DNA of 64,000 bases from Caballeronia cordobensis. Its GTDB lineage: Bacteria > Pseudomonadota > Gammaproteobacteria > Burkholderiales > Burkholderiaceae. Shown one piece after another: positions 23,424-53,562 of the stretch; within the stretch, counting starts at the first letter, position 1; each line of letters begins with the position of its first letter. A model generated the notes under the pieces. The model was given only the letters and a program-made list of their open reading frames with translations. It was not told the DNA's origin and ran no database searches. The stretch is taken from positions 186,001 to 250,000 of the forward strand of contig NZ_FCNY02000008.1 of NCBI RefSeq assembly GCF_001544575.2, given 5' to 3'. The position numbers were made by a program, and so were the translations under genes.

Positions 23424-23438
23424 AATATAAATTATATT
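23424..23438. promoter_or_regulatory. Island operator 1: AATATAA-A-TTATATT palindrome
   Basis: Perfect 15-bp palindrome with 7-bp arms, followed by TTG, ending 27 bp before the GTG of the first CoA-transferase gene. The same core recurs ahead of six other transcription units in this window. It is proposed as the site of the two nearly identical GntR regulators encoded at 27686 and 50311. Its closeness to the start codon suggests repression by blocking RNA polymerase. Confidence 0.65.
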
Positions 23439-23465
23439 TTGTGCACGGGGAACCAAGGAGGAGCA

Positions 23466-24611
23466 GTGAATAGTCCATTTGAAGACGTCCAGATACTGGA
23501 CCTGACGTGGGAATTCGGCCGCTACGTGGGCCGGCTATTCGGGGATCTCGGTGCGCGGGTGACGCGTATCGAACCGCCGGGCGGATTGCCTGACCGGCGG
23601 GCGGCGACATCGGCGGACGCAATCGAACGCGAGCCGGCGGTCTATGAATTCGAGTTCTTGAACGCGGGCAAGGACAGCATGACGCTGGATCTGACCTCCG
23701 CGAAAGGCCGCGAAACGTTCGCGGCGCTGGCGCAGTCGGCGAACGTGATCCTGCTCGAGCGCGGCGGTCCGTTGTATGACGAACTGTCGTGGGTGCGGCA
23801 GCAGGCTCCGCTGGCGGTCGTGACATCGATCTCGCCTTTCGGACGCACGGGTCCGTGGGCGGATGCGCCCGCGACCGATTTGACGCTGCAGTCGGCGGGC
23901 GGCATCGCCTGGCTGTCGGGCCGTCTGACCGATGCGCCGCTGCGCTTGCCGGGCCTGCAAGCGACGATGGTCACGGGGGTATACGCGGCAACGGCGACAT
24001 CGCTGGCGCTGTACGACACGCTGGCCACGGGCCGCGGTCACGAGGTGGACGTATCGGCGCAGGAGTGCATCGCCCACTCGTTGCAGAACTCCATCCAGAT
24101 GTGGGACTTCGAGCGCAAGGTGTCGATGCGTGGCGGCGAAGGCACGCGAGACGCGAGCGAGGACATGTTCGCCTGCCGCGACGGGTTGATTTTCCTGGCG
24201 GCGCCGCGCTCGCTGGGCGTGTCGTGGAACGCGCTCGTGGACTGGATTCAGGAGACGGGACATCCGTCGGCGGAAGAGCTCACGAAGGAGCGCTGGGCGG
24301 ATCGCGTATGGCGGCTCACGGGCGAGGCGAAGTCGATATTCCGTCAGACGCTGGAATCGTTCACGCGGGACTACACGCAGGATCAGCTCACGCAAGAGGC
24401 GCTGAAACGCAAGATCGTGATGGGTCCGGTGGCCCGGGTCACCGACGTGCTCGACGACCCTCAGCTCAGACACCGCGAGTACTTCGAGCAAGTGGCGTTG
24501 TCGCTCGCTGGCGCGCGCGTGAGCTTTCCCGGCGCGCCTTATCGATTGTCCGAGCCCGTATGGAAGCTCAGGCCCGCCATCGCCGGCAATGAACAGCCGC
24601 AGCCGGCGTGA
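23466..24611 (+). CDS. CaiB/BaiF CoA-transferase subunit lacking the catalytic Asp
   Basis: 381-residue class III CoA-transferase homologue (FEDVQILDLTWEFGRYVGRLF at the N-terminus; GDLGARVTRIEPPGG; TGRGHEVDVSAQECIA). At the position of the catalytic Asp near residue 169 of CaiB it has Ala166 (LQATMVTG), so it should be inactive alone. The next gene encodes a homologue that keeps the Asp, resembling heteromeric enzymes such as benzylsuccinate CoA-transferase BbsEF. The GTG at 23466 is chosen because AAGGAGGAG lies directly upstream. It is first in an operon with the second subunit, a thiolase-like protein and a DUF35 protein. The CoA acceptor acid is unknown. Confidence 0.88.
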   Translation: MNSPFEDVQILDLTWEFGRYVGRLFGDLGARVTRIEPPGGLPDRRAATSADAIEREPAVYEFEFLNAGKDSMTLDLTSAKGRETFAALAQSANVILLERGGPLYDELSWVRQQAPLAVVTSISPFGRTGPWADAPATDLTLQSAGGIAWLSGRLTDAPLRLPGLQATMVTGVYAATATSLALYDTLATGRGHEVDVSAQECIAHSLQNSIQMWDFERKVSMRGGEGTRDASEDMFACRDGLIFLAAPRSLGVSWNALVDWIQETGHPSAEELTKERWADRVWRLTGEAKSIFRQTLESFTRDYTQDQLTQEALKRKIVMGPVARVTDVLDDPQLRHREYFEQVALSLAGARVSFPGAPYRLSEPVWKLRPAIAGNEQPQPA

Positions 24612-24630
24612 CACAAGAAGAGGAGACTTC

Positions 24631-25848
24631 ATGAAGCCTGATTTCCTTGAAGGCGTTCGCTTTACCGATCTCACATGGGCCGGAGCAGGTCCGTTCGGCA
24701 CGAAGGTGTTCTCCGATTTCGGCGCTGAAGTGCTGAAGATCGAAAGCACCACGCGCCTCGATTCAGTGCGCACGGCCGGTCCTTACAAGGATGGCGTCTT
24801 CGGACTAAACCGCAGCGGTTACTTTGCGTCGCGCAACACGGGCAAGAAAAGCATTTCGCTGAACCTGAAGACCGAGGAAGGCAAGCGCATCGTGCGCGAG
24901 CTGGTCGCAAAATCGGATGTCGTGTCGAACAACTTCGGCCCCGGCGCGATGGACCGCTTCGGCTTCGGCTACGAGGCGCTGCGCGAGATCAAGCCCGACA
25001 TCATTTATCTGTCGATGCCGATGTACGGACAGGACGGCCCGCGCGCGAACCTGCTCGGCGTCGGCATGACGATCAGCGCCGTCACGAGCATCATGTGGCA
25101 GACGGCCTATGGTCCCGCCGATCCCGTCGGTCCGGGCACGCATTATCCGGATCACGCCGCGAATCCCTATCACGCGGCGTTCGCGGTGCTCGCCGCGCTC
25201 GCGCATCGGCGCAAGACCGGGCGCGGCATGAAGATCGATCTGTCGCAGGTCGAATCGACGATCAATTTCGTCGGCCCGGCCATCGTCGAGGCGAGCGCAA
25301 CGGGCCGCGAGCCGCCGCAGATCGGCAATCGCAGCCGCAGCCATGCGCCGCACAACATCTTTCGCGCGCGCGGCGACGATCAGTGGGTCGCCGTGGCCGT
25401 CACGGACGACGCGCAGTGGCGCGCGCTCACCGCGATCATCGGGCGCGCGGATCTGGGCGACGATGCCTCGCTTTCCACCGCGGCCGGCCGCCTGGCCGCG
25501 CAGGATCGCGTCGAGCAGGCCGTGTCCGAATGGTGCGCAACGCATTCGCCCGACGAGATCGTGGCCGCGCTGCGCGCGCAACGGATCGCCGTGTCCGAGG
25601 TCGCGCATTCGCGCAGGCTCATCGAAGCCGATCCGCAGCTTGCGCATCGGAACTACTGGCAGCACGTGCAGCATCCGGAGATCGGCGCGGTGCTGCTCAA
25701 CTCGCCGCCGTATCTCATCGACGGCGAGCGCGTCGAGCTTCAGCCGCCGCCGCTGCTCGGCCAGCATACCCGCGAGGTGCTCGGCCGCCTGCTTGGTATG
25801 TCCGGAAAGCAACTGGACGAACTGAACGATCAAGGAGTGTTTTCGTGA
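24631..25848 (+). CDS. CaiB/BaiF CoA-transferase, catalytic subunit
   Basis: 405-residue class III CoA-transferase. The N-terminus has VRFTDLTWAGAGPFGTKVFS and FGAEVLKIES. The conserved Asp174 in HYPDHAANPYHA matches the residue that forms the acyl-anhydride intermediate, and GRGMKIDLSQVES follows. With the upstream Asp-less homologue it probably forms a heteromeric transferase that activates a carboxylic acid, using an acyl-CoA donor. AAGAGGAGA precedes the ATG. Its TGA overlaps the GTG of the thiolase-like gene by 4 bp (GTGA), so the two are translationally coupled. Confidence 0.9.
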   Translation: MKPDFLEGVRFTDLTWAGAGPFGTKVFSDFGAEVLKIESTTRLDSVRTAGPYKDGVFGLNRSGYFASRNTGKKSISLNLKTEEGKRIVRELVAKSDVVSNNFGPGAMDRFGFGYEALREIKPDIIYLSMPMYGQDGPRANLLGVGMTISAVTSIMWQTAYGPADPVGPGTHYPDHAANPYHAAFAVLAALAHRRKTGRGMKIDLSQVESTINFVGPAIVEASATGREPPQIGNRSRSHAPHNIFRARGDDQWVAVAVTDDAQWRALTAIIGRADLGDDASLSTAAGRLAAQDRVEQAVSEWCATHSPDEIVAALRAQRIAVSEVAHSRRLIEADPQLAHRNYWQHVQHPEIGAVLLNSPPYLIDGERVELQPPPLLGQHTREVLGRLLGMSGKQLDELNDQGVFS

Positions 25849-27029
25849 GCGAGTGGAAAGCGGCAAGCCCGTCGAAAGCGCTGCGCCGGGCGGCAGCGGT
25901 GGTCGGCGTCGGCCATTCGGACTGGGTGGGCGACTGGAAGCGCGTGCGCGGCGGCGAGAAGCCGACCGATAGCTACGGCTACGGCGCGATCGCGCTGCGC
26001 CAGGCGCTCGACGACGCGGGCATCGGCAAGGATGAAATCGACGGTCTCATCGTCGGTCCGACGACGGCCTACGAGCGGATGTCGGAAGTGCTCGGCATCG
26101 ATCCGCGCTGGGGCGATCAGGCCGATGCGGTACTGTCGGTCGCTCAGGCGGTGACGGCGATTCAGGCAGGCCTCGCGGAGACGGTCGCCCTCGTCTACGG
26201 CAACGATCAGCGCTCGGCGCAGATCCAGTACGGCGGCCCGCAGGCAATGGGCGGCGATGCGTTTCTCTCGTACGTGTATCACTCGCCATGGGGCCTCACC
26301 TCGCAAGGCGCGCTGTATGCGCTGACGTTCCGCGCCTTCTGCGAGGCACGCGGCTTCGAGCCCGATGACCTCGGGCACGTGGCGGTCGCGCAGCGCGCGT
26401 GGTCCTCCATGAATCCGAACGCGGTGATGCGCAAGCGGATCACGCTCGACGAATACCGCGAGGCCAAGTACATCTGCGAGCCGCTGCGCCTGTACGACTA
26501 CTGCATGATCAACGACGGCGGCGTCGCGCTGATCGTCACGACGGCCGAGCGGGCGGCGCGCTTCAAAAAGCCGCCCGTGTATATCGAGGCGATCGGGCGG
26601 CGCGATCTGAACCGCGGCGCCACCAGCCTCGAACCGCGCCTGACCGACTTCTACCTGTCCGCGCAGCAGGACTGCGCACGTCAGGCCTACGAGATGGCCG
26701 GTTTTGGCCCGAAAGACATGGACCTGTTCCAGGTGTACGACAGCTTCTCCGTGCATGTGCCGCTCGCGCTCGAAGGTTACGGCTATTGCGCGGTCGGCGA
26801 CGTCGGGCGGTTCCTGCGCGAAGAGGGCATCGGGCCGGGCGGCAAGCTGCCGACCAATACGGGCGGCGGGCACTTGTCGGAGACCTATATGCAGGGCTGG
26901 GCGCATCAGATCGAATGCGTGCGCCAGGTGCGCGGCGAATGCGGCGAGCGTCAGATCGACGATTGCCGGCACGCGCACTACACATCCGATGTCGCCGGCA
27001 AGGCCGTTTCGATCATCTATAGCCGATAG
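25845..27029 (+). CDS. Thiolase-fold protein lacking the active-site Cys (Ltp2-like aldolase candidate)
   Basis: 394-residue thiolase-superfamily protein of the SCP-x/lipid-transfer type. The C-terminus has the typical TNTGGGHLSETYMQGWAHQ segment and a GxGGKLPT block. The usual nucleophilic Cys near residue 90 is absent: the region reads QADAVLSVAQAVTAIQ. In the Ltp2 family such Cys-less proteins act with a DUF35 partner as retro-aldolases that remove acetyl- or propionyl-CoA from a beta-hydroxyacyl-CoA. The next gene encodes exactly such a DUF35 protein, which supports that role. The start GTG overlaps the preceding stop, with AGGAG seven bases upstream. Confidence 0.85.
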   Translation: MSEWKAASPSKALRRAAAVVGVGHSDWVGDWKRVRGGEKPTDSYGYGAIALRQALDDAGIGKDEIDGLIVGPTTAYERMSEVLGIDPRWGDQADAVLSVAQAVTAIQAGLAETVALVYGNDQRSAQIQYGGPQAMGGDAFLSYVYHSPWGLTSQGALYALTFRAFCEARGFEPDDLGHVAVAQRAWSSMNPNAVMRKRITLDEYREAKYICEPLRLYDYCMINDGGVALIVTTAERAARFKKPPVYIEAIGRRDLNRGATSLEPRLTDFYLSAQQDCARQAYEMAGFGPKDMDLFQVYDSFSVHVPLALEGYGYCAVGDVGRFLREEGIGPGGKLPTNTGGGHLSETYMQGWAHQIECVRQVRGECGERQIDDCRHAHYTSDVAGKAVSIIYSR

Positions 27030-27037
27030 GAAATCAC

Positions 27038-27472
27038 ATGACTGAGACACCCGCCGAAGCGCCGCGCACGCCGCAACCGGTGATGGGCATGTACGACGCA
27101 CCGATGTGGCAGAGCATCCGCGATGGCGCGCTCAAGCTCCAGCACTGCGCGTCCTGCGACACCGTGCTTTACCCGCCGGGGCCGGTTTGCCCGCACTGCC
27201 TCTCCAGCGAACTCGAATGGCGCGGCGTGTCGGGGCGTGGCACGGTGCTGTCCTGGGTCGTCTTTCACAAGACCTATCTGGACGCATACCCGGCGCCCTA
27301 CAACGTGATTGCGGTACGTCTGGAAGAAGGTGCCGTGCTTGTCTCGAACCTTGAAGCCCCGCTGCCCGAGGGAAGCTGGATCGGCAAGCAAGTCCGCATG
27401 ATCTTCAAGCCGATGCCGGACGGTTTCGTGCTGCCCAAATTCGTGCTGGATACGGACGGGACCCGCTCCTGA
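27038..27472 (+). CDS. DUF35 zinc-ribbon/OB-fold protein (aldolase partner)
   Basis: 144-residue acyl-CoA-associated DUF35 protein. The rubredoxin-like zinc ribbon is complete: LQHCASCDTVLYPPGPVCPHC (two CxxC pairs, at about residues 38-58). The OB fold follows (WRGVSGRGTVLSWVVFHK and YNVIAVRLEEGAVLVSN). DUF35 proteins bind CoA esters and are obligate partners of Cys-less thiolase-fold aldolases. It begins eight bases after the thiolase-like gene and is the last gene of the operon. It is paralogous to the DUF35 gene at 45813. Confidence 0.9.
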   Translation: MTETPAEAPRTPQPVMGMYDAPMWQSIRDGALKLQHCASCDTVLYPPGPVCPHCLSSELEWRGVSGRGTVLSWVVFHKTYLDAYPAPYNVIAVRLEEGAVLVSNLEAPLPEGSWIGKQVRMIFKPMPDGFVLPKFVLDTDGTRS

Positions 27473-27548: not shown

Positions 27549-27564
27549 CATATATTTTATTTGC
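27549..27564. promoter_or_regulatory. Island operator 2: degenerate AT-rich half-palindrome
   Basis: CATATATTTTATTTGC matches the right half and the trailing TTTGC of the island palindrome but is poorly symmetric. It lies about 120 bp upstream of the first GntR gene and right after the CoA-transferase operon. Autoregulation of the regulator is the obvious suggestion; the weak match lowers confidence. Confidence 0.4.
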
Positions 27565-27685: not shown

Positions 27686-28333
27686 ATGGTGTTTCGAACA
27701 AAGCTGGATCAGGTGGCCGAGCGGCTGAGAGAGCGGATCATCTCGGGCGAGTACCGGCGGGGAGAGAAGCTGAAGCAGGCGGAGATCGCGGAGGAACTCG
27801 GCGTATCGATCACGCCGGTGCGCGAGGCGCTCAAGGCGCTCGAAATGGAGGGCTTTGTGCTGAGCATCCCGCACAAAGGCCTGCTCGTGCCGGAGATAGA
27901 CCGCAAGAGCGTGCGTGAGATCTTCGAGTTGCGCGTGGTGCTGGAGCGCCGGCTCACGGAGTGGGCGCTCGAAAAGATCACGGACAACGAGATCGCCGAG
28001 CTGCGCACGATCCATCGCGAGTTGAGCAAGTTGACGAAGGCGCGCGAGCCGTTCCCGGTGCGTGCGGCCAACGTCCGGTTTCACTTTCGAATCTATGAAA
28101 TCGCCGATCGCCCGCAGACGCTGCAGTTCGTCCGGGTGTTATGGGCCAAGTATCCGTTCAACTTCCACGACGACCAGGCAGCCCGCTTCAAGCAACTGCT
28201 GCACGAGCACGAAGAGATTCTGCGCCGGCTCGAAGAAGGCGATCGTGCCGGCGCGCTGGCGGCGATGGTCGAGCACATCGAGGCCGGCTGGCATCGTGTG
28301 GAGAAGAACGCCACGGAACCGGCGAAAGAATGA
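27686..28333 (+). CDS. GntR-family (FCD-type) transcriptional regulator 1
   Basis: 215-residue regulator. The winged helix at about 7-70 contains LRERIISGEY and the recognition region ELGVSITPVREALKALEMEG. The FCD ligand domain (about 80-205) shows FELRVVLERRL, VRFHFRIYEIA, LHEHEEIL and EHIEAGW, whose histidines suggest a metal site. Over the first 53 aligned residues (KLDQ to GFV) it matches the regulator at 50311 at 48 positions, with an identical recognition helix, so both should bind the same DNA. The ATG at 27686 is where homology starts; only CTGGGG precedes it. It probably senses a pathway acid or CoA ester. Confidence 0.92.
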   Translation: MVFRTKLDQVAERLRERIISGEYRRGEKLKQAEIAEELGVSITPVREALKALEMEGFVLSIPHKGLLVPEIDRKSVREIFELRVVLERRLTEWALEKITDNEIAELRTIHRELSKLTKAREPFPVRAANVRFHFRIYEIADRPQTLQFVRVLWAKYPFNFHDDQAARFKQLLHEHEEILRRLEEGDRAGALAAMVEHIEAGWHRVEKNATEPAKE

Positions 28334-28382: not shown

Positions 28383-29162
28383 ATGAGCACTTCTCGCAAT
28401 CCCGTTTCACCTCTCGGCGCGCCGGGCGCGCGCCGCACGCTGATCGTGACCGGCGGCTCGCGCGGCATCGGCGCGGCCGTCTCGCGGGGCGCCGCGCGCA
28501 GCGGCTATCGCGTCTGCATCAATTATCGCAATGGGGTGGAGGCCGCCGAACGGCTCGCCGACGAGATCGTGTCCTCGGGCGGCGACGCATTCGCGTGGCA
28601 AGCCGATACGTCCGACGAGCGCGCCGTCGTCGCCATGTTCGACGAGGTCGCGCGACGCTATGGCCCGCTGACCGATCTCGTCAACAATGCGGGCGTGAGC
28701 GGCGGCTCGACCCGTCTCGCGGACCTCGACGTCTCCGCGCTGCAGGAAACCCTCGCCGTCAATGTGATGGGCTATTTCCTCTGTTGCCGTGAAGCCGTGC
28801 GATGCATGTCGACGGAGCGCGGCGGCGCGGGCGGGCGCATCGTCAACGTATCGTCGGTGGCGGCTGCGCACGGATCGGCGGGCCGGCGCGTGCACTATGC
28901 GGCATCGAAAGGCGCGGTCAATTCGCTGACCATCGGCCTCGCGAAGGAAGTGGCGCGCGAGGGCATCCGCGTGAATGCGGTTTCTCCGGGCCTCGTGTAC
29001 ACCGATTTCAACGAACCCGGACGCATCGAGCGTCTCGCGGACGAAGTTCCGATCGGACGCGGCGGATCGCCGGAGGAGATCGCCAACGCGATTCTCTGGC
29101 TGCTGAACGACGACGCGGGGTATGTGCTGAGCGCCAACCTGGTGGTGTCGGGCGGCCGGTAG
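28383..29162 (+). CDS. SDR-family oxidoreductase
   Basis: 259-residue classical short-chain dehydrogenase/reductase, FabG-like. The nucleotide-binding motif GGSRGIG is near residue 24. VNNAGVSGG, the serine of NVSSVAAAHG and the YAASK active-site motif are all present, and VNAVSPGLVYTDF follows. Length is normal. GGAGACGCAGG precedes the ATG. It follows the GntR gene by 49 bp and is probably co-transcribed with it. It would oxidise a hydroxyl group or reduce a ketone; cofactor and substrate are not resolved from the sequence. Confidence 0.9.
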   Translation: MSTSRNPVSPLGAPGARRTLIVTGGSRGIGAAVSRGAARSGYRVCINYRNGVEAAERLADEIVSSGGDAFAWQADTSDERAVVAMFDEVARRYGPLTDLVNNAGVSGGSTRLADLDVSALQETLAVNVMGYFLCCREAVRCMSTERGGAGGRIVNVSSVAAAHGSAGRRVHYAASKGAVNSLTIGLAKEVAREGIRVNAVSPGLVYTDFNEPGRIERLADEVPIGRGGSPEEIANAILWLLNDDAGYVLSANLVVSGGR

Positions 29163-29280: not shown

Positions 29281-29297
29281 AAATATAATTTATATTT
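29281..29297. promoter_or_regulatory. Island operator 3: AAATATAA-T-TTATATTT palindrome
   Basis: Perfect 17-bp palindrome with 8-bp arms, followed by GCG, about 66 bp upstream of the MFS transporter start. It is the most symmetric copy of the island motif and lies in a 200-bp gap without a gene. Confidence 0.65.
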
Positions 29298-29362: not shown

Positions 29363-30670
29363 GTGCGCTGGAGATCTCGCTACTGGGTGTATCTGATGCT
29401 GTTCGCGCTCGCCGCGATCAACTATCTGGATCGCGTCGCGCTGTCCGTGTCGGCCGGCCACGTCCAGGCGGCGCTGGGCATCGACAAGGTTCAGCTCGGC
29501 TATCTGTTTTCTTCCTTTCTCTGGGGTTACACGCTCTGCCTGATCCCGATGGGCCTGCTCATCGACCGATTCGGCTCGCGCTCGGTGACGGCCTTCAGCA
29601 TGGCGCTCTGGTCCGCCGCGACCGCGCTGACCGGCGCGGCCACATCGATGGGCGGCGTCGTCGCCGCGCGCGTGGTGATGGGTGTCGGCGAATCGTGCTG
29701 CTATCCGGCGGCTTCGCGGATCATCCGCGAATGGGTGCCGAGCAGCGAGCGCGGCACTGCGATGACGGTGTTCAACTCGGGCGCGTACTTCGGTCCGGCG
29801 CTGGGTGCGGTGGGCTTGTCCTGGCTCGTATCGGTGCTCGACTGGCGCATCTCGTTCGCCATCTGCGGTCTCGTGGGTTTCGTGTGGCTGGCCGTGTGGC
29901 TCGCATTTTTCCGTCAGCCCGAAGAGGCCTCGTGGATTTCCGATGAAGAGCGCGAAACGATTCGCCGCGAGCGCGAGACCGTATCGCAAGCGCAGGCGGT
30001 CGCGTCGCAGCCGATCGGGCTGAGCCGCATCATCGCGAGCCGCACGATGTGGGGCCTCATGCTCACGCAGGGCGCGGGCGCCTACACGCAATATCTGTTT
30101 CTGACGTGGCTGCCGAACTACCTGCAGGCTGAACGCGGCATGACGCTGCTCAAGAGCGGCACCGTGATGGCGCTGCCGTACATCGGATCGATCGTTGTTT
30201 CCGTGGCGCTCGGCATGTTGAGCGACCGCCTGCTGACGGCGCGCGCGGTGGAAGCGGGACGCCGGCGCATCGTGCTCGGCTCCGTCGTGCTAGGCGGCGC
30301 GGTCATCCTGTTCGTGCCCTGGGTGTCCAGCATCGAAGGCATTCTGCTGCTCATCACGATGGCGCTGGGCAGTGTCGCGACGGGCAACGCGCTCAACATC
30401 ACGCTGCTCGGCGACCTGTTGCGCTCGAAGGCCGATCTCGGCCGCGCGACGGGCCTGCTGCTGATCGGCGGAAACGTGTTCGGCTTCCTCGCACCGATCG
30501 TGACCGGCTATGTGGTGCAGGCGACCGGGCGATTCGACACCGCGTTCGCGGCGGCGGGCGGCCTGCTCGTGATGGGCGCGCTGTCATCGTGGTTTCTCAC
30601 GCGTTCGCCGATCGGCGAGCGTCCCGGCGCGGCGCTGCAAGGCGATGTGACGGGGCAGATCGGAGGCTGA
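29363..30670 (+). CDS. MFS transporter, ACS (anion:cation symporter) type
   Basis: 435-residue, 12-helix transporter. Helix 1 (YWVYLMLFALAAINYLDRVALS) and the later RFGSRSVTAFSMALWS and GVGESCCYPAASRIIREW blocks are characteristic of the ACS family, which imports organic anions such as glucarate, phthalate or tartrate. The GTG at 29363 is chosen because AAGGAGACGATT precedes it at ideal spacing, and the membrane core then begins six residues in. It is followed two bases later by an amidohydrolase gene, so uptake and first hydrolysis may be coupled. It probably carries the island's substrate or a related acid. Confidence 0.9.
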   Translation: MRWRSRYWVYLMLFALAAINYLDRVALSVSAGHVQAALGIDKVQLGYLFSSFLWGYTLCLIPMGLLIDRFGSRSVTAFSMALWSAATALTGAATSMGGVVAARVVMGVGESCCYPAASRIIREWVPSSERGTAMTVFNSGAYFGPALGAVGLSWLVSVLDWRISFAICGLVGFVWLAVWLAFFRQPEEASWISDEERETIRRERETVSQAQAVASQPIGLSRIIASRTMWGLMLTQGAGAYTQYLFLTWLPNYLQAERGMTLLKSGTVMALPYIGSIVVSVALGMLSDRLLTARAVEAGRRRIVLGSVVLGGAVILFVPWVSSIEGILLLITMALGSVATGNALNITLLGDLLRSKADLGRATGLLLIGGNVFGFLAPIVTGYVVQATGRFDTAFAAAGGLLVMGALSSWFLTRSPIGERPGAALQGDVTGQIGG

Positions 30671-30671
30671 C

Positions 30672-31724
30672 ATGAACGAACCGCTCACCGCGCCGCGCGA
30701 CATCGCGAAGGCTGCGCCGCACATTGCGATACGCCCGGAATGGCTGGCGCTTCGCACCGAACCGGCACTGGAACCCGACCTGCCGATCATCGATGCGCAC
30801 CATCATCTGTGGGAGTTTGCGGACAAGCGTTATCGCTCGCGGGATCTGCTCGACGATCTCGCGAGCGGTCACAATGTCCGCGCGACGGTGTTCGTCGAAT
30901 GCAAGACGCACTACGACACCGATGGCCCGGAAGAACGCGCGTCGGCGGGTGAAATGCGCTTCGCATTGGCCGAAGCGCGCGAGGCCGAGGCGCTCGGCAC
31001 CTTCACGCGCGTCGGGGCCGCGTTCGTCGGCAACGTGGATCTGACGCTCGGGGCGGCGGCGGGGCCGGCGCTCGATCACCTGATCGACGTGTCGGAAGGG
31101 CGCTTGCGCAGCATCCGCAATATCGCCGTGTGGCACGCCAACCCGGACGTGCGTCCATCGGCCGCGACGCCGCCGGCCAGGCTGCTGCTCGATCCGTCGT
31201 TTCAGGCCGGCATTGCGCAGTTGGCGCCGCGCCAGCTTGCATTCGATGCATGGCTGATTCACACGCAACTGCCCGAGCTATGTCAGCTAGCGGACAAATT
31301 CGGCGATACGCCGATCGTGCTCAATCACGTCGGCGGCCCGCTGGCGCTCGGGCCGTACCGCGGGCACCGCGACGCAGTGTTCGCGGCATGGCGCGATGAC
31401 ATGGCGCGGCTGTCGAGCTACGCGAATGTGCACGTGAAGCTGGGCGGCTTCGGCATGCCGCTCTTCGGCTTCGACTTTGAGAGAACGGCGCTGCCGCCTG
31501 ATTCCGCATCGGTGGCCGAGGCGATCCGGCCGTATGTCGAGACTTGCATCGAGACGTTTGGCGCTTCGCGCTGCATGTTCGAGAGCAATTTCCCGGTGGA
31601 CAAGGGCTGTTTCGGCTACGGCATCGCGTGGAATGCCTACAAGCGCGTGACGGCGAATCTGCCTGCGTCAGACCGCGCTGCGTTGTTTCACGATACCGCG
31701 GCCCGCTTCTACCGTATCCGATAA
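30672..31724 (+). CDS. Amidohydrolase-2 family metal-dependent hydrolase
   Basis: 350-residue TIM-barrel hydrolase. The metal motif appears as IIDAHHHLWEF (His43 and His45), with LNHVGGPL, a KLGGFGMPLFGF strand and FESNFPVDKG near the C-terminus supplying the final Asp. This subgroup includes lactonases such as fuconolactonase and rhamnonolactonase, and decarboxylases. Lactone hydrolysis is therefore a reasonable guess given the SMP-30 lactonase homologues nearby, but the substrate is open. CGGAGG precedes the ATG, and the gene is coupled to the MFS gene upstream. Confidence 0.85.
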   Translation: MNEPLTAPRDIAKAAPHIAIRPEWLALRTEPALEPDLPIIDAHHHLWEFADKRYRSRDLLDDLASGHNVRATVFVECKTHYDTDGPEERASAGEMRFALAEAREAEALGTFTRVGAAFVGNVDLTLGAAAGPALDHLIDVSEGRLRSIRNIAVWHANPDVRPSAATPPARLLLDPSFQAGIAQLAPRQLAFDAWLIHTQLPELCQLADKFGDTPIVLNHVGGPLALGPYRGHRDAVFAAWRDDMARLSSYANVHVKLGGFGMPLFGFDFERTALPPDSASVAEAIRPYVETCIETFGASRCMFESNFPVDKGCFGYGIAWNAYKRVTANLPASDRAALFHDTAARFYRIR

Positions 31725-31768: not shown

Positions 31769-31785
31769 CCGTAATATATATTCGG
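31769..31785. promoter_or_regulatory. Island operator 4: AATATATATT palindrome
   Basis: A perfect 10-bp core AATATATATT (31773-31782) lies inside a longer repeat CCG...CGG with one mismatched pair, about 40 bp before the MBL hydrolase GTG. It is a looser match to the island motif, but it has the same position and base composition in the same kind of gap. Confidence 0.5.
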
Positions 31786-32723: not shown

Positions 32724-32789
32724 ATTAAAGAACGGCCTGAACCGCGGCGGCCGGGCAGGCGGCACGAAAACCATAAAGGAGATATCCGT

Positions 32790-33965: not shown

Positions 33966-33986
33966 AGGCGCCCCTGCCGCGCGGCC

Positions 33987-34007
33987 GGCCGGCGAAGTCC
34001 GCCGGCC
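33987..34007 (+). terminator. Hairpin between LivK- and LivH-like genes (attenuator candidate)
   Basis: GGCCGGCG-AAGTC-CGCCGGCC forms a perfect 8-bp GC stem with a 5-base loop in the gap after the binding-protein gene. There is no following T run, so full termination is unlikely. Such stems often stabilise the upstream mRNA and give high binding-protein levels. Confidence 0.5.
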
Positions 34008-44783: not shown

Positions 44784-44785
44784 CG

Positions 44786-45787: not shown

Positions 45788-45812
45788 GAATTCCTCCAGC
45801 GGTGCGTGTGCG

Positions 45813-46223
45813 TCAGGCGGGGACGAAGCGCGCGAGCGAGACCTCGGGCGTCACGTCTTCGAACTGCACTTTCATCGGCATGCCCATCTTCACATCCTGG
45901 GGAATGCCGTTCCCGAAGTTGCCGACGACGATCGGGCCATCGTCGAGTTGAACGAGGCAGACGTGATACGGCAGCTCGCCGCGAAAGGCGTCCCAGTACG
46001 CGCGATGAAACGTGACCCACGAGACGAGCGTGCCGCGGCCGCTGACCGCTTCCCACGCCTGCGCATCGGACAGACACGAGGGGCATACGGGCGATGCCGG
46101 AAAATGCCGATGGCCGCATTGCCGGCACACCTGCACCGACAGCCGATGCTGGCGCGCGAAGTTCCAGTAACCCTTCGAATACTCGTCGATCGCCGGTAGC
46201 GGCTTGTCATAGGCAGTGGTCAT
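45813..46223 (-). CDS. DUF35 zinc-ribbon/OB-fold protein (aldolase partner)
   Basis: 136-residue DUF35 protein. The zinc ribbon CRQCGHRHFPASPVCPSC has both CxxC pairs at about residues 33-50. The OB fold follows with VSGRGTLVSWVTFHRAY and YHVCLVQLDDGPIVVGN. Together with the thiolase-like protein encoded three bases upstream it should form an Ltp2-DUF35-type complex. It is paralogous to the protein at 27038. Confidence 0.9.
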   Translation of the reverse strand: MTTAYDKPLPAIDEYSKGYWNFARQHRLSVQVCRQCGHRHFPASPVCPSCLSDAQAWEAVSGRGTLVSWVTFHRAYWDAFRGELPYHVCLVQLDDGPIVVGNFGNGIPQDVKMGMPMKVQFEDVTPEVSLARFVPA

Positions 46224-46226
46224 GGC

Positions 46227-47357
46227 TTATCCCTTCGTGTAGATGATCGATCGCGTGCACGGCGTGGCCGCGATGTACTGCACGACCTCGCAGTCCTTCA
46301 CCTGGCGCGCGCCGCATTCGCCGCGCAGCTGCCGCACCGCTTCGACATTGAGCGCCCAGCCCTGCATATACGAATTCGACAAGTGGCCGCCATCGGTATT
46401 CGTCGGCAGCCGGCCATGTACGCCGAGCGCGCCGTTCTCGACGAACGCGCCCGCCTCGCCGCGCTCGCAGAAGCCGAGCCCTTCGAGGCTGAAGAGCACC
46501 GTCGGCGTGAAGTTGTCGTAGCACATCAGGGCATCGACATCGTCCTTCGTGACGCCCGCCATCTCGTAGGCCTGCGTGCCCGCCTCGCGCACCTCGTCGT
46601 ACCAGAACTCGGGATCGAAGTTGCCGATGGCGGAACGCTCGAACGCATCGCGCGCGCCGACGCCCGAAATCAGCACCGGCGGCTGTCGGAGATCGTTCGC
46701 GCGCTCGCGCGTCGTGAGAATCATGCAGACGGCGCCGTCGTTGATGAGGCAGTAGTCGAGCAGACCGAGCGGCTCGACGATCCTGCGTATCGACGCGTGA
46801 TCCTCCAGCGTGATGGGCTTGCGCATGACCGCGTCGGGATTCAGGATTGCGTTGTTGCGAAAGGCGACGGACACTTCCCCGAGCTGGCGCGTCGTCGTGC
46901 CGTAGCGCTCCATATGCATGCGGAACATCAGCCCATGCGAAGCGCCCGGCGACGTGAGACCCCACGGGTCCCAGAACGAAGCGAATTCGTCGCCGCCATA
47001 GTTCATCCGGCGCGAGCGCCCGATGTTCGTATAGATGAGCGCGACATATTTCGCCGCGCCCGTTTCGAGCGCGAGCATCGCTTCGGCGATCGCCATGCCG
47101 GACATGCGGCCGTGGCCCGGCAGCGTCATCGTCCAGCGCGGATTGAGGCCGAGGATCTCGCCCATGCGCGCATAGAAGGGCACGCGGCAGCAGAGCAGGC
47201 CGTCGATCTCGTTCTTGTCGAGCCCGCAATCGGCGATCGCGGCCTTGAATGCCTCGGCGCCGAGCGCGTAATCGTCGACGGCGGGGAAGTCGCCGTAAGG
47301 CGTGTTGCCGACGCCGACGACGGCGATCCGGTTACTGAGGCCCTGCATCGGATTCAT
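46227..47357 (-). CDS. Thiolase-fold protein lacking the active-site Cys (Ltp2-like aldolase candidate)
   Basis: 376-residue thiolase-superfamily protein, paralogous to that at 25845. The C-terminal signature LPTNTDGGHLSNSYMQGWAL is present. The nucleophile-loop region reads LPGHGRMSGMAIAEAML, without Cys, which excludes normal thiolysis and fits a retro-aldolase or carrier role with the adjacent DUF35 protein. The operon order is fused CoA-transferase, this gene, DUF35, DhaK-like, DhaL-like. The start ATG has only a weak upstream ribosome site (CGGAGACACAGC, at a few bases). Confidence 0.86.
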   Translation of the reverse strand: MNPMQGLSNRIAVVGVGNTPYGDFPAVDDYALGAEAFKAAIADCGLDKNEIDGLLCCRVPFYARMGEILGLNPRWTMTLPGHGRMSGMAIAEAMLALETGAAKYVALIYTNIGRSRRMNYGGDEFASFWDPWGLTSPGASHGLMFRMHMERYGTTTRQLGEVSVAFRNNAILNPDAVMRKPITLEDHASIRRIVEPLGLLDYCLINDGAVCMILTTRERANDLRQPPVLISGVGARDAFERSAIGNFDPEFWYDEVREAGTQAYEMAGVTKDDVDALMCYDNFTPTVLFSLEGLGFCERGEAGAFVENGALGVHGRLPTNTDGGHLSNSYMQGWALNVEAVRQLRGECGARQVKDCEVVQYIAATPCTRSIIYTKG

Positions 47358-47399
47358 GCTGTGTCTCCGTTCGATATGGGATGGTCGGGGCAGACGCGC

Positions 47400-50030
47400 T
47401 CAGATCACGCCTTCCTCGCGCAGCGCGTCGATCTCCGACGCGCCGTAGCCGAGCCACTGGCTGAGCACGTGTGCGTTGTCCTCGCCGTAGCACGGCGCGC
47501 CGCGGTCGATCACGCCGCCGCTATAGGCGGGCGTCGCGGCGAGCTTGACCGGGAATTCGATGACCGGCCAGCGGCCGATGCGCGTGCCCGTTACTTCCGT
47601 CAGCCAGCCGAGTTCGGTGAGTTGCGGATCGGCATCGCAGCGGCCGGCGGCCGTCTGGCACACGCCGGCCGGCACGCCCGCGCGCTGCAGGCGCTGCATG
47701 CAGGCGTAAGGCTCCTGACTCGACGTCCACGCGCCGACGAGCGCGTCGAGTGCGTCCTGGTGAGCGAGCCGGTCCGTGAGCGTCGCGAAGCGCGGGTCGC
47801 CGGCGAGCGCGGGCAGTTGTGCGGCGTCGACGAAGGTGTGCCAGTGCGCGTCGCTGAAGCAGGCGATCGCGAGCCACGCGTCATCGCCCGCGCACCGGTA
47901 GGCGCCGTGCGGCGCGGCGCGCTTGTACGGCGAGCGGTTGCCGTAGCGCGTCCAGACGCGGCCATTGGCCGACCAGTCGAGCACGGACGACGCCGTCTGG
48001 AAGATGCCGGATTCGCACTGCGACGAGTCGATCCACTGGCCTTCGCCGGTGCGCTCGCGGTGATAGAGCGCGCCGAGCGCGGCGAGCGCGAAGCCGTATG
48101 CGCCGATCCAGTCGAGATACGAGTAGCCCCATCCGGCAGGCATCGCGGGATCGGGCAGGCCGGACATTTCGGTGCTGCCCGCGAACGACGCGGCCACGGG
48201 CCCCACCGTACGGAACCGGCCATAGCGGCCGATCGTGCCCATGCCCGACTGCTGCACATAGATGATGTCCGGCCGGATCGACTTCAGCACGTCGTAGCCG
48301 AGGCCGAGCCGTTGCAGCACGCCGGGCGAGAACCCTTCGGCGACGATATCGCACTGGCGGATCAGATCCTTCGCGATCGCGAGACCTTTCGGATGCCGGA
48401 TGTTCAACGACATGCCGCGCTTGCCCGCGTTCTTGTTGTTGAACTGCCCGCCCATATCGGGGTCCGTGACGCCCGGCAGCGGCCCGGTGGCCTTTTCGCG
48501 CGCCTCACGGCCGCCGACCGGCGCCATCGCGGCCAGCCGCGTGTCGGGATTCTCCTTCCATTCGACCTTGATGCTTTCCGCGCCGAGCGCATTCAGGAAG
48601 CGCGTGCCGCCCGCCGATGCGAGGAACCACGAGAAGTCGAAGATGCGCACGCCCTGCAAAGGGAATGGCTTGCCATGCTTCGAGAGCGTCACACCGGCGG
48701 GCGATGGATCGCGAGGCCGCGCGGGCAGCTTGTCCCCTTCGCTGCGCGCGAGCGGCTTCGTGAGCGGCTTCATGAGCGTGGCGTCGTCGTTGTGCTCGCC
48801 GAGGAACGGCGCGCGCGTGCCCGCCTGCCATGCGGTGGCCGTGCCGAGCCATTTGCTGGTCGGATAGCGGAAGCTGCGGCCAAGCTCCGGATGTTCGATG
48901 TCGCTGAACGACGAGCGCGCGAGCCAGTGCTCGTCCTCGGCATTCTCGTGAGGCTTGCGCACGGGCGCCCACAGCAGCCCCGCGTCCTGAGCTTCGCGCC
49001 ACGGCAAGTGTTCGTAATCGTACGAGCCGACGAAACGCTGGATGACTTCGAGCATATGGCGCGTATCGGCATCGACCTCGGTCGAACCCGGCGTGTTGCG
49101 AGCCGTCATGTCGGTGTCGCTCGGGGGCGGCTGCAGGTCCTCGGCCTTGTCGAACTGTTGGAGGAACGGCACGAGCCGCGCCTTGTCGCGCGCGGATACG
49201 CCCCATGTCATGTTCCAGCGGCCATCCGACGTGCGGCTGATATTCGGCACGTCGCTCGGCGTCTCGGATGCGTGCCGCGCCGTCTGCCGATAAAGCGGCG
49301 CATGCCGCATCACCCACGACATGAGGTCGAGTTCGGTGTTGATCGACACGGCTTGATGGATCGCGCACGAGACATCCTGACCTTCGCCGGTGCGCAAGCG
49401 GTGCATCAACGCGGCGAGAATCGCGACGGCGGTCTGGTCGCCGGCGATGTGATACGCGTGCCAGACCTGCGGGGCGATCGGGGGCGTGGAGTAGGTGCCG
49501 TCCGCATTCCGGTCGTAGCCGCAGTTCATCATCACGCCGCCGAGCGCGAGATGAACGAGGTCCGATGCGCGATAGTCCTTCCACGGTCCGCTGTCGCCGA
49601 ACGGCGTAATGCGCGCATGGATCAGCGCGGGAAAACGCTTTGTCACCGGCTCGCCGAGTTCCAGGTCGCGCGCGAGGCGGCCGCACGTGCTGTCGAGCAG
49701 GATGTCCGCGTGGGCCAGCAGGTCGAGCAGTCGCGCACGGCCCGTGGGACTCGCCGTATCGATCACCACCGATTTCTTGCCGCGGTTGTAGGCCCAGAAA
49801 TGCAGCGAGCGCTCGCGGTCTTCGACGTCTTCGTAAAACGGCCCGATGCCGCGCGTCGTATTGCCGTGAAGCGGTTCGATCTTGATGACCTCGGCGCCCA
49901 GTCCTGCCAGCAGCAGACCGCAGTATTCGCCGGTTTCGTCGGCGACTTCGATGACCCTGAGGCCGGTCAGCATGCCGGGGAGGGTAGCGGGGTCGGGCAT
50001 GCTGGGTCCGGAAGCGGTGCGATGCGACAT
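47400..50030 (-). CDS. Fused tandem CaiB/BaiF CoA-transferase
   Basis: 876-residue protein holding two class III CoA-transferase domains in one chain. Domain 1 covers about 15-420 (LTGLRVIEVADETGEYCGLL; GLGAEVIKIEPLHG) and lacks the catalytic Asp: the aligned region HAYHIAGDQTAV has Ala at that position. Domain 2 covers about 455-870 (LQGVRIFDFSWFLASAGGTR; LGAESIKVEW) and keeps the Asp640 in YSYLDWIGAYG. The domain order (Asp-less first, catalytic second) equals the order of the two separate genes at 23466 and 24631, so this is their fused counterpart. It probably activates a related acid with CoA. It is the first gene of the operon, 41 bp from island operator 6. Confidence 0.9.
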   Translation of the reverse strand: MSHRTASGPSMPDPATLPGMLTGLRVIEVADETGEYCGLLLAGLGAEVIKIEPLHGNTTRGIGPFYEDVEDRERSLHFWAYNRGKKSVVIDTASPTGRARLLDLLAHADILLDSTCGRLARDLELGEPVTKRFPALIHARITPFGDSGPWKDYRASDLVHLALGGVMMNCGYDRNADGTYSTPPIAPQVWHAYHIAGDQTAVAILAALMHRLRTGEGQDVSCAIHQAVSINTELDLMSWVMRHAPLYRQTARHASETPSDVPNISRTSDGRWNMTWGVSARDKARLVPFLQQFDKAEDLQPPPSDTDMTARNTPGSTEVDADTRHMLEVIQRFVGSYDYEHLPWREAQDAGLLWAPVRKPHENAEDEHWLARSSFSDIEHPELGRSFRYPTSKWLGTATAWQAGTRAPFLGEHNDDATLMKPLTKPLARSEGDKLPARPRDPSPAGVTLSKHGKPFPLQGVRIFDFSWFLASAGGTRFLNALGAESIKVEWKENPDTRLAAMAPVGGREAREKATGPLPGVTDPDMGGQFNNKNAGKRGMSLNIRHPKGLAIAKDLIRQCDIVAEGFSPGVLQRLGLGYDVLKSIRPDIIYVQQSGMGTIGRYGRFRTVGPVAASFAGSTEMSGLPDPAMPAGWGYSYLDWIGAYGFALAALGALYHRERTGEGQWIDSSQCESGIFQTASSVLDWSANGRVWTRYGNRSPYKRAAPHGAYRCAGDDAWLAIACFSDAHWHTFVDAAQLPALAGDPRFATLTDRLAHQDALDALVGAWTSSQEPYACMQRLQRAGVPAGVCQTAAGRCDADPQLTELGWLTEVTGTRIGRWPVIEFPVKLAATPAYSGGVIDRGAPCYGEDNAHVLSQWLGYGASEIDALREEGVI

Positions 50031-50070: not shown

Positions 50071-50096
50071 GCAAATTATAAAATATATTCTATAAC
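50071..50096. promoter_or_regulatory. Island operator 6: AT-rich element in divergent promoter
   Basis: GCAAATTATAAAATATATTC plus TATAA, read on the minus strand as GAATATATTTTATAATTTGC, matches the island consensus including the trailing TTTGC but with one base inserted in the core. It lies between the fused CoA-transferase operon and the second GntR gene, so it could control both. Confidence 0.5.
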
Positions 50097-50310: not shown

Positions 50311-50961
50311 ATGGCTTTCCTCACAAAACTCGATCACGTGGCAGAACGTTTGCGAGAACGGATCATCTCGGGTGAGTACCCGCGCGGCCACAAGCTGAAG
50401 CAGGCGGATATCGCCGCCGAACTCGGCGTATCGATCACGCCGGTGCGCGAGGCGCTCAAGGCGCTCGAAATGGAAGGCTTCGTCGTCAGCGAACCGCATC
50501 GTGGCCTGTCAGTGCCCGATATCGATCCGATGCGCGCACGCGAGATCTTCGAATTGCGCGTCGTGCTGGAGCGCATGCTCGCCTTCAAGGCCGCCGAGCG
50601 CGCGACGAAGGAAGACATCGCCGAGCTGCGCGCGATGCACAAGGAGTTCGTCGCGCTGGTCAAGAGCGGCGAGCGCTTCGCGATTCGCGCCGCGAACGTG
50701 CGGTTTCACTTCCGGCTCTACGAGATCGCCGACTGTCAGCAGACGCTGCAGTTCGTCCGGGTGCTGTGGGCCAAGTTTCCGTTCAACTTCCATTACGATC
50801 AGGCAGGGCGATTCAAGCAGTTGCCGCACGAGCACGTCGAGATCCTGCGCAAGCTCGAGGATCACGACGCGCAGGGCGTGGCGGATGCGATGACCGAGCA
50901 CATCGAGGCCGGCTGGGTTCGGGTCGAGAAGAATCTGACGACGCCGTCCACTGCCGCCTGA
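50311..50961 (+). CDS. GntR-family (FCD-type) transcriptional regulator 2
   Basis: 216-residue regulator, close paralogue of that at 27686. The recognition region ELGVSITPVREALKALEMEG is identical between them. The FCD domain has FELRVVLERML, VRFHFRLYEIA, PHEHVEIL and EHIEAGW. The effector domains differ more than the DNA-binding domains, so the two may read different ligands at the same operators. The ATG at 50311 is where homology begins; no strong ribosome site is seen. It is divergent from the fused CoA-transferase operon across a 280-bp gap containing operator 6. Confidence 0.92.
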   Translation: MAFLTKLDHVAERLRERIISGEYPRGHKLKQADIAAELGVSITPVREALKALEMEGFVVSEPHRGLSVPDIDPMRAREIFELRVVLERMLAFKAAERATKEDIAELRAMHKEFVALVKSGERFAIRAANVRFHFRLYEIADCQQTLQFVRVLWAKFPFNFHYDQAGRFKQLPHEHVEILRKLEDHDAQGVADAMTEHIEAGWVRVEKNLTTPSTAA

Positions 50962-51015: not shown

Positions 51016-52392
51016 TCAACGTCCCGCGCGGGCGGGGGTGAGCGGCTGCCCCGTTTCGGCGGCGATCGGTGCGATCGGCTCCTCTTCCACCAGCGAGCGG
51101 CGGCAGGTTTCCGGCAGCGTGAAATACAGCACGACGAACGCGATCAGCGCGATCGCGCAAAGATAGAACGCCGGCGAAACCGCAATGCCCGTGCTTGCCA
51201 CCAGGGCGGCCGCGATCAGCGGACCGGTGCCCGCGACCGGCCCGGCGCCGAGATTGAGCGCGAGCGCGCCGCTCGTCATCCGCGTGCGCGGCGGGAACAG
51301 CTCCACGACGACAACCGTGTTCATCACGTTGATGAGCGCCTGAAACGACGCGAAGATCACGAGCCCCGCGAATGCGATCAGCAGGCTGCCCGACGACAGC
51401 ATGAAGAACACCGGCAAGCCGAACGCCATGTGTCCGAAGATGCCGATGAGGAAGGTCTTGCGACGGCCGATCACATCCGACAGCCAGCCCGCCAGCGGAC
51501 AGAACAGCCCGTAGAGCACGAGGCTCGCGCCGCTCACCATCACCGATTCGGTGCGCCCCAGATGACCGGTCACGGGCAGATAGTTCACCATGTACGTGAC
51601 GAAGTAGTAGAAGCCGAGACCGGTGATGCTCGCGAACAGGAACGCGATGCCGATCATGCGGATATCTTCCTTCAGCGAAGCAAGGAACGGCGTTCTGGCA
51701 ACGCCGCCCGCCGAGCGCGCCTTGATTTCCTCGAACACCGGCGTGTCTTCGAGCTTCAGCCGCATGTAGAGGCCGACCAGCCCCACAGGCACCGCGAGCA
51801 CGAAGGGAATGCGCCAGCCCCACGCATCGAATGCCTGCGCATCCAGCCTGCTCGATATGGCGAACACCACGAGACTGCCTGCCGCGACGCCGAATGCGGC
51901 CGTCGCCGAAATCACGCTCGCTGCGATGCCCCGGCGATTCGCCGGCGCATATTCGACGAGAAACGTGCCCGCGCCCATCCATTCGCCGCCGACGGACATG
52001 CCTTGCACGCAACGCGTGAGCAGGAGCGCGACGGTCGCCCACATGCCGATGCGCTCATAGGTCGGGAGGATCGCGAGCACGAACGTGGCCGCGCTCATGA
52101 CGATGATCGCGATGGCGAGCGACTCCCGCCGGCCCACACGATCGCCGATCATGCCAAGCACGATGCCGCCCAGCGGACGAAGCAGAAAGGCGATGCCGAA
52201 CACCGCGAGCGATGAAAGCAGCGCGACCGTCGTGTTGCCCGCCGGAAAAAACGCGTGACCGATATTGACCGCGACGAAGCCATACACCGCGAAGTCGAAT
52301 CACTCCATGAAATTGCCGATCAGTGTCGCGATGACCGCGCGCCTTCTGCGAGTCGAGATGTCGGCCTTGGGGCCGCCGTTCGTCGTGTTCAA
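51016..52392 (-). pseudogene. MHS-family MFS transporter interrupted by an in-frame TGA
   Basis: A metabolite:H+ symporter (MHS) family gene of 458 codons. The TTG at 52392 has GGAGACTGCA just upstream. It encodes RRRRAVIATLIGNFMEW-type family sequence, but codon 31, the Trp of the conserved GNFMEWFDFAVYGF motif in helix 1, is TGA (52302-52300) instead of TGG. Downstream, the reading frame continues intact for over 420 codons with all MHS features (FLLRPLGGIVLGMIGDRVGRR; TRCVQGMSVGGEWMGAG). Translation from an internal start would lose part of helix 1. It is either a recent nonsense mutation or a sequencing error. It follows the SMP-30 gene in one unit. Confidence 0.8.
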
Positions 52393-52450
52393 TGCAGTCT
52401 CCGGTTTTGTCTGTTCTGTAGGTGGATCGCGCGCCGATGCGGCCCGCGAT

Positions 52451-53446
52451 TCAGCGCAGCGAGCGGTTCCAGTTCGTTGTCGGCGCGCCGGCGATGGGAC
52501 TTTCGAAGGTCAACACCGCATCGCCGAGCAGGCAGCCGAGGTAGGCGGTTCTCCTGTCTGGACCGCCGAACACGAGGCTCGATACGCTTTTCAGCCGCGA
52601 TGTGCCGGTCGTCGCCATGTCGTCGGGCGTGAGCGAACGGGCCGCGTAGCGCGACGCGAGGTAAGCCGTGTACTCGACGTCGAGGTCTTCGAGCACGATC
52701 TGCGTCGAGCCGTCCGGCCGAACGACGATGACGCGGTTGCTGCCGACGCAGGTGACCCACACGCCGCCGAATGCGTCGAAGCACAGGCCGTCCGGAAAGT
52801 CGGCGCCTTCGTATTGGCAGACGATTTCCTTCGGTCCCAGCGACGGTCCCGGCAGCAGGGAGAACCGGCTCGTCTTCTGCGCGTAGGTTTCGTTCACGTA
52901 CAGCCACTTGCCGTCAGGAGAGAAGGCGATTTCGTTCGTATAGCCAAGACCGTCCGCCACGATGCGCGATCCTTTCGCGTCCGCCACGCCGATGAAGCCA
53001 TCGGCAACATCGCGCGTCCACGCCCGCGCACGCGGACGCATGCGCGTGCTGACCGTGAACCAGATCGCGCCGTTGCCGTCTTCGACGACGAAGTTCGTCG
53101 GCGGCATGGGCGCGTTGTCTACGGTCTCCACGACGGGTTCGACCGCGCCGTTTCCATCGATGCTGAAGATGCCGCCGAGCTCGCTGCCGAGGTTGGCGAA
53201 CAGCACCTTGCCGCGCGTCGATAACGCGATGCCATTGGGCACATAGCGACGCGGATTGCCGTCGGCCGGCAGGACATGACGCGGCGAGCCGCCGGGACGC
53301 CAGTGCGTGTAGCCGCCTGCGCCGTGCGCGGCGATCAGTTCGCCCGTCTCAAGCGCGAGCACGCACTCCGGCCGGGTGAGGCCGGCAGCGGAGACGCGCA
53401 AGTCGGAAAAAACAAGCCGGAAGTCGGGCCTGAGTGGATAGGACAT
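52451..53446 (-). CDS. SMP-30/gluconolactonase-like beta-propeller protein
   Basis: 331-residue SMP-30 family protein, more distant from the other two in the window. Motifs include RRYVPNGIALSTRG, PPTNFVVEDGNGAIWFTVS, LGYTNEIAFSPDGKWLYVNET and FPDGLCFDAFGGVWVTCVGS, which supply the Asn and Asp metal ligands. It probably opens a lactone. GGGAGAGCTTCCG precedes the ATG at 53446; the longer frame from 53551 runs through the operator. It leads a unit with the disrupted MHS transporter and lies downstream of island operator 7. Confidence 0.85.
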   Translation of the reverse strand: MSYPLRPDFRLVFSDLRVSAAGLTRPECVLALETGELIAAHGAGGYTHWRPGGSPRHVLPADGNPRRYVPNGIALSTRGKVLFANLGSELGGIFSIDGNGAVEPVVETVDNAPMPPTNFVVEDGNGAIWFTVSTRMRPRARAWTRDVADGFIGVADAKGSRIVADGLGYTNEIAFSPDGKWLYVNETYAQKTSRFSLLPGPSLGPKEIVCQYEGADFPDGLCFDAFGGVWVTCVGSNRVIVVRPDGSTQIVLEDLDVEYTAYLASRYAARSLTPDDMATTGTSRLKSVSSLVFGGPDRRTAYLGCLLGDAVLTFESPIAGAPTTNWNRSLR

Positions 53447-53530
53447 CGGAAGCTCTCCCGCATGGGTTGGACGTGAAAGGGCGCACGCCGGTACGTGAAA
53501 ACGCCGGTACGTCTGCCGGTGGTCCCAGAC

Positions 53531-53562
53531 AATATAATTTATATTTTGCATTTTATAAAATG
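53531..53562. promoter_or_regulatory. Island operator 7: two AT-rich palindromes
   Basis: AATATAA-T-TTATATT (53531-53545) is a perfect 15-bp palindrome followed by TTGCA. CATTTTATAAAATG (53549-53562) is a perfect 14-bp palindrome four bases further on. The pair lies about 85 bp upstream of the SMP-30 start and just after the end of the dehydratase gene. It is the right-most copy of the island motif seen. Confidence 0.65.

Follow-up and report, generated by a model that had tools for sequence, protein, structure and literature searches.

Palindromic sites in the cluster

The window analysed here is a stretch of 64,000 nucleotides from the soil bacterium Caballeronia cordobensis, bases 186001-250000 of contig NZ_FCNY02000008.1 in a GC-rich genome of 8.2 Mb (8,208,096 bases). 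It holds a cluster of approximately 30 kb in which genes for coenzyme A (CoA)-transferases, thiolase-like proteins, hydrolases and transporters stand together with those for the paralogous regulators GntR1 and GntR2, and in which copies of a 15-bp palindrome, AATATAAWTTATATT (type A), occupy promoter gaps (Table 1). The initial annotation had read AT-rich palindromes ahead of seven transcription units as the mark of one regulon, probably controlled by two paralogous GntR proteins. Its gene assignments were mostly confirmed by Pfam and NCBIfam, and the two paralogues are present, although FCD GntR genes in the window number three or more rather than two.

Motif scans were scored by mismatch count, with the reversed motif as a control. 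The window scan yielded three exact copies of AATATAAWTTATATT and two copies with 2 mismatches (Table 1). Sites previously placed at 23424, 39114 and 53531 were recovered there and those at 29281 and 50071 were relocated to 29282 and 50075, the latter being one of the copies with 2 mismatches, while the looser sites at 27549 and 31773 were not within 3 mismatches of the motif. At ≤3 mismatches five sites were seen in the window against 0.04 expected, and none of 100 window shuffles reached five. Across the whole genome, a tolerance of ≤2 mismatches gave five places, all of them inside the cluster, and no match to the reversed control; the motif is therefore not common at unrelated promoters. 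At ≤3 mismatches both type A and the control gave 13 matches, so that a looser definition carries no genome-wide information, and looser forms were dropped for that use. The earlier remark that almost no other AT runs occur also held: of the ten A/T runs at least 10 bases long, eight lie at the seven places and two elsewhere in the window (4057 and 19903). The palindrome is real and is specific to this locus in the C. cordobensis genome. Five of the seven sites are solid, that at 27549 is loose but kept in one relative, and that at 31773 is weak.

Table 1. Candidate operator sites and genes of the cluster (window positions).
Feature	Position	Strand	Remarks
Type A candidate operator AATATAAATTATATT, exact	23424..23438	+	Over -10 of CoA-transferase operon, TTGCGC-N17-TATATT
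Loose AT site ATATATTTTATTT	27550..27562	+	Upstream of GntR1-SDR
Type A candidate operator, exact	29282..29296	+	Over -10 of MFS1-amidohydrolase, TTGTCC-N17-TATATT
Weak AT run TAATATATATT	31772..31782	+	Upstream of MBL-Liv importer
Type A candidate operator, 2 mismatches	39114..39128	+	Between flavin reductase (-) and MFS2 (+); TTGCGT-N17-TATATA towards MFS2
Type B candidate operator TATATAATGCATTATATG	39123..39140	+	Overlaps 39114 type A site
Type A candidate operator, 2 mismatches	50075..50089	-	Between fused CoA-transferase (-) and GntR2 (+)
Type A candidate operator, exact	53531..53545	-	Upstream of SMP-30b and MFS transporter
CoAT1a, CoAT1b (CoA-transferase III pair), thiolase-like Thio1, DUF35/OB protein OB1	23466..27472	+	
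GntR1, VanR/FCD regulator	27686..28333	+	Helix-turn-helix SITPVREA; candidate repressor
SDR	28386..29162	+	
MFS1, amidohydrolase 2	29363..31724	+	
MBL-fold hydrolase, LivKHMGF importer	31824..37420	+	
SMP-30a-like protein, flavin reductase	37488..39070	-	SMP-30-like name of 37488-38399 read from its translation, with no NCBIfam match at E ≤ 1e-20; flavin reductase by Pfam
MFS2, acyl-CoA dehydrogenase	39235..41801	+	
GntR3, third FCD GntR gene	41828..42607	-	Canonical Arg helix-turn-helix; adjoins aldehyde dehydrogenase
Fused CoA-transferase (CoATfus), Thio2, OB2, DhaK, DhaL	44167..50030	-	DhaL named by position beside DhaK, in window and relatives
GntR2, GntR1 paralogue (72% identical)	50311..50961	+	Same recognition helix as GntR1
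MFS transporter (MHS in the initial annotation), SMP-30b	51016..53446	-	

Promoter anatomy and conservation

At the CoAT1a and MFS1 promoters the palindrome covers the promoter spacer and the -10 box. Its right arm forms the -10, and in each of the 10 promoters compared from these two groups a TTG precedes TATATT with a spacer of exactly 17 bp. The MFS2 promoter of the window has the same register, which is absent in the MFS2 relatives.

The cluster recurs in Caballeronia sp. dw_19, C. glathei, Burkholderia sp. E7m39, Pollutimonas bauzanensis and a further genome of the same family, G715, and the motif is kept at matching promoters in other genera. Among the CoAT1a promoters of six species the 15-mer showed an identity of 0.96 against 0.24-0.40 for the flanks; for the MFS1 promoters (the window and three relatives) the values were 0.97 against 0.28-0.47. 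These flank figures omit the TTG itself, for which identity was 1.0. The MFS1 set excludes E7m39, whose MFS1 promoter has no type A site, and Pollutimonas, whose examined stretches showed no MFS1.

The G715 assembly has three contigs, two of which share the cluster between them, each with its own GntR paralogue and sites. Contig C3 carries GntR1 (88-89%), CoAT1, MFS1, MBL-Liv and flavin reductase, whereas C1 carries GntR2 (88%), CoATfus, DhaKL, SMP-30b and the SMP-30b-linked transporter. Exact type A sites precede CoAT1a and MFS1, the 15-mer of the CoATfus/GntR2 gap is identical to that of the window, and counterparts also exist for the flavin reductase site and the loose GntR1 site. The SMP-30b gap of G715 has a 2-mismatch site that aligns out of register with that of the window, so that only the intergenic gap is common to the two. 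At 27549, for which G715 gave the only counterpart among four relatives aligned, identity between the two species was 0.87 within the site and 0.20-0.55 in the flanking sequence. The site at 31773 gave no alignment with the relatives' promoters; the MBL promoter of G715 and E7m39 has a better AT element that does not align with it.

A conserved 15-mer with diverged flanks and its right arm on the -10 should be a repressor operator and, because it covers both spacer and -10, repression would proceed by exclusion of polymerase. Atu1419 (PMC7797058) and AlkR (PMC12042122) are described as FCD repressors of catabolic genes with palindromic operators that overlap the -10 in a like manner. It is very improbable that the sites are mere AT-rich spacer and -10 elements with no operator role. 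The right arm is a good -10 and the TTG register is what such elements would give, but the left arm, AATATAA, is conserved within a spacer where a sigma-70 promoter does not need it; the symmetry of the G715 CoAT1a site reaches 17 bp on each side; and plain promoters should recur genome-wide rather than within one cluster.

GntR1 and GntR2 as candidate readers

GntR proteins form a large family of bacterial regulators, most of whose known operators have a GT/AC core with a guanine that is read by an arginine. GntR1 and GntR2 matched both PF00392 and PF07729 above cut-off, corresponding to an N-terminal winged helix-turn-helix and a C-terminal FCD domain. The predicted model of GntR1 places six helices after the winged helix-turn-helix (residues 76-209, mean pLDDT 90.5), and its top matches in the PDB include McbR, AlkR, TM0439 and Atu1419. 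Residues N129, H133, H175 and H197 of GntR1, invariant in 39 aligned homologues of the 120 listed, follow what we take to be the FCD pattern of a predicted metal or effector site. A site of three His with Asn or Asp is described for some VanR members (PMC7797058), and a six-helix effector domain is given as a mark of the VanR group (PMC12042122).

The recognition helix of both proteins reads SITPVREA. Its S-x-T-x-x-R frame corresponds to Ser44, Arg45, Thr46 and Arg49 of Atu1419, in which Arg45 is reported to contact an essential guanine whose change to A abolishes binding (PMC7797058); in GntR1 and GntR2 the base-reading Arg is replaced by Ile42. That Arg is described as typical, not strictly defining, of VanR proteins (PMC7797058). 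Ile stood at this position in 20 of 22 aligned sequences and Arg in GntR3, which is not a close relative of the pair, and in the 29% outgroup. Among the 54 FCD regulators found in the genome the position was held by Arg (44), Lys (3), Thr (2) or one each of Gln, Ala and Ser, the only two Ile cases being GntR1 and GntR2, and all of the 120 homologues listed, of 1308, had Ile (98), Val (21) or Ala (1). The type A palindrome contains no G or C in its 15 bp, and an operator of this kind fits a recognition helix without a guanine-reading arginine. Exceptions to the GT/AC core, such as BioR and NanR, are on record (PMC4494728). The combination of a missing arginine and a missing G/C core is the most telling finding of the analysis. 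A C. glathei homologue of GntR1, 73% identical (P0012, L049:9995-10639), bears the public name 'Predicted regulator PutR for proline utilization', which its neighbour genes do not support.

Several known systems invite comparison. The best fold match to the modelled GntR1 was Escherichia coli McbR/YncC (VanR-type GntR, PDB 4P9F; TM 0.81), which has the same SITPVREA helix as both paralogues and whose sites in chromatin immunoprecipitation sequencing reportedly seem to include ATATAT (PMC13343897). McbR is, however, only 24% identical to GntR1, which makes orthology unlikely, and reportedly binds AT-rich sites in very large numbers, while the regulon proposed here looks local, with a defined 15-bp promoter palindrome. 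No McbR motif was found in the available part of PMC6134199. The operators given for Atu1419 and AlkR differ from type A in containing G and C (ATGTATACAT, ATTGTCAGACAAT), and both proteins use the Arg45 that GntR1 and GntR2 lack. BioR, an exception within the FadR subfamily (operator TTATMKATAA; PMC4494728), likewise recognises an AT-dominated palindrome outside the GT/AC consensus, but its operator is shorter than type A and of different sequence; it is described as regulating biotin metabolism in alphaproteobacteria (PMC4554459).

Palindrome and regulator also occur together. In the 58 Caballeronia genomes, for which up to 52 candidates per genome were scored, a GntR1 relative at E ≤ 1e-40 was present in three, and exact palindromes in the same three. 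At least seven of 398 family genomes had such a relative, four of them with a protein of ≥70% identity; here the best 7 candidates or fewer were scored per genome, so that distant relatives are undercounted. The exact TTG-N11-palindrome was found, among the places listed, in four of the 398 genomes, the same four that have the ≥70% GntR1. With ≤2 mismatches this string matched in 55 of the 398, many of them small genomes with control matches too.

A second palindrome, type B (AATATAATGCATTATATT), has a TGCA core and an arm spacing of 18 bp, 3 bp more than the 15 bp of type A. At ≤3 mismatches it had one match in the genome, 39123-39140, overlapping type A. The gap adjoining the GntR3 gene yielded no match to type A at ≤3 mismatches, either in the window or in G715, and none to type B. 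Of the 16 genomes that have a family member, 12 also have a type B site, which in 11 cases shares a contig with the regulator; none of the 10 genus genomes without a member has one. At four of five distant loci inspected (L051, L102, L096, L101) it adjoins a gene for a CoA-ligase or a CoA-transferase in the vicinity of the GntR gene, and at the fifth (L099, genome G231) it lies between TauD and TctC genes. Loci L119 and L120 were used solely to show two type B sites, and L121 was excluded. A literature search for four motif strings matched only the 12-base form of type B, in papers that, so far as their available text goes, are unrelated. A different palindrome, AATGTAATGGATTACATT, with a GG/CC core, was noted in G013, G012 and G016 (L106, L107 and L117), two of which are among the ten without a member. 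Between a GntR gene and an aldehyde dehydrogenase gene of E7m39 (L068:1486-1584) lie one exact type A site and a further A site that overlaps a B site, a sequence arrangement that suggests autoregulation there.

It is unlikely that GntR1 and GntR2 read only one palindrome class, A or B, with a different regulator reading the other. Such a division would suit the 3-bp difference in arm spacing, the accompaniment of most 43-49% relatives by B and not A, and the extra, more distant family member in the clusters of C. glathei and Pollutimonas. Nevertheless, both classes occur in dw_19, where a single family member reaches E ≤ 1e-40, and the two classes overlap at 39114-39140.

The palindromes are read as operators of a local catabolic regulon that GntR1 and GntR2 are predicted, with good probability, to bind and repress. 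This reading draws on locus specificity, the palindrome itself, the TTG register of two groups of promoters, conservation, co-occurrence and the helix substitution. Of the seven units proposed to belong to one regulon, five have sites that support this well and two have sites that support it weakly. Co-occurrence and an unusual recognition helix make the paralogues named in the initial annotation the leading candidates as readers, and on these sequence grounds the assignment is a strong one.

A number of observations weigh against this reading. At ≤1 mismatch the 58 genus genomes gave eight matches in four genomes against eight in seven for the reversed control, two of the eight control matches falling in dw_19. 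At ≤2 mismatches type A matched in 95 of 150 relatives, often no more than the reversed control (8 against 9 in dw_19). At that tolerance one of five matches in G715 lay outside the cluster (control 2); Pollutimonas had two sites in the cluster, one exact and one with 1 mismatch, and a third outside it with 2 mismatches (control 5); and E7m39 had three sites, none elsewhere, all on its two cluster-bearing contigs (control 2). The odds computed here assume independent genomes, which relatives are not, and are illustrative. Across species, the flavin reductase, CoATfus and SMP-30b promoters do not maintain the TTG register, and the promoter of GntR1 itself has a loose site only. The reversed control of type B matched in 7 of 26 genomes, and G192, G707, G766 and G153, which have distant family members, showed no type B site. 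Finally, one dimer may not accept the two arm spacings, 15 and 18 bp, that occur in one cluster. As type A at ≤2 mismatches is common in relatives, only exact or clustered sites are informative beyond the C. cordobensis genome and, as the count at ≤1 mismatch equals that of the control in the genus, exactness and place, not number, carry the argument.

A reader other than the pair, whether GntR3, an unlinked regulator or an H-NS-like silencer, is distinctly improbable. H-NS-like silencers favour AT-rich DNA, GntR3 is present in both the window and G715, and binding by GntR1 and GntR2 is a prediction only. However, GntR3 has the canonical Arg, and tblastn at E ≤ 1e-10 detected no GntR3 relative in the C. 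glathei and Pollutimonas stretches (approximately 60 kb each), where the motif is retained. Under a silencer one would not expect a 15-bp palindrome to hold its position on the -10 while its flanks diverge.

Under the preferred assignment, dimers of GntR1 and GntR2 would bind AATATAA-W-TTATATT, and at the best sites the bound protein, lying on the spacer and -10 hexamer, would exclude RNA polymerase. We infer, beyond binding and repression, an inducer: a pathway acid or acyl-CoA in the FCD pocket may release the repressor, and release would turn on uptake, the opening of lactones, CoA activation and cleavage at the same time, such that the cluster probably behaves as one switchable unit. FadR-group regulators are described as binding small ligands such as carboxylic acids (PMC4494728), and AlkR as being released by long-chain acyl-CoA (PMC12042122). 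Inducer screening could reveal the pathway substrate.

More tentatively, and with a little less confidence than would make it probable, the Arg to Ile swap may define a VanR-type clade with an operator code that lacks the GT/AC core (AATATAA arms with a 1-bp or TGCA spacer) and that runs an undescribed CoA-dependent pathway, which may release dihydroxyacetone. A clade without both the arginine and the GT/AC core would provide a natural experiment on shifts of specificity, and a simple rule, testable on sequence, for predicting AT-only operators.

Gene content and possible pathway

One candidate pathway would take in as many as 26 genes, counting those of the two weak units. The conserved genes comprise those for uptake (MFS, Liv), for lactone or amide hydrolysis (MBL, SMP-30, amidohydrolase) and for a CoA pathway (an unfused and a fused CoA-transferase III pair, acyl-CoA dehydrogenase and two thiolase/DUF35 pairs), in addition to dihydroxyacetone kinase. 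The best PDB match of the fused CoA-transferase was a benzylsuccinate CoA-transferase subunit, and matches of the thiolase/DUF35 pair of the 44167-50030 operon include the lipid-transfer protein 6ok1, which we take to be Ltp2-ChsH2. BbsEF, BbsAB and Ltp2-ChsH2 resemble the cluster in their CoA-transferase III pairs and in a thiolase with a DUF35 partner. The Bbs systems differ in that their thiolase models matched the cluster proteins far below NCBIfam cut-offs, and in that the genes are here joined with DhaKL, lactonase-like proteins and importers.

As a guess at the substrate, activation to a CoA ester followed by a cleavage that releases a three-carbon ketone would fit the genes. For the 44167-50030 operon, retro-aldol release of dihydroxyacetone from a branched polyol acyl-CoA would explain the gene set, although this is speculative. 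A literature search on the gene combination found nothing with most of the genes together. Deoxyribonate catabolism (PMC6365646) was considered as a parallel and set aside; the P. bryophila cluster is described there with an AraC-type regulator and other genes.

The G+C content at third codon positions of chosen open reading frames was 0.68-0.79 in 1-23400, before the cluster, and mostly 0.80-0.90 (range 0.74-0.90) inside and after it. This shift at the cluster start hints at different origins.

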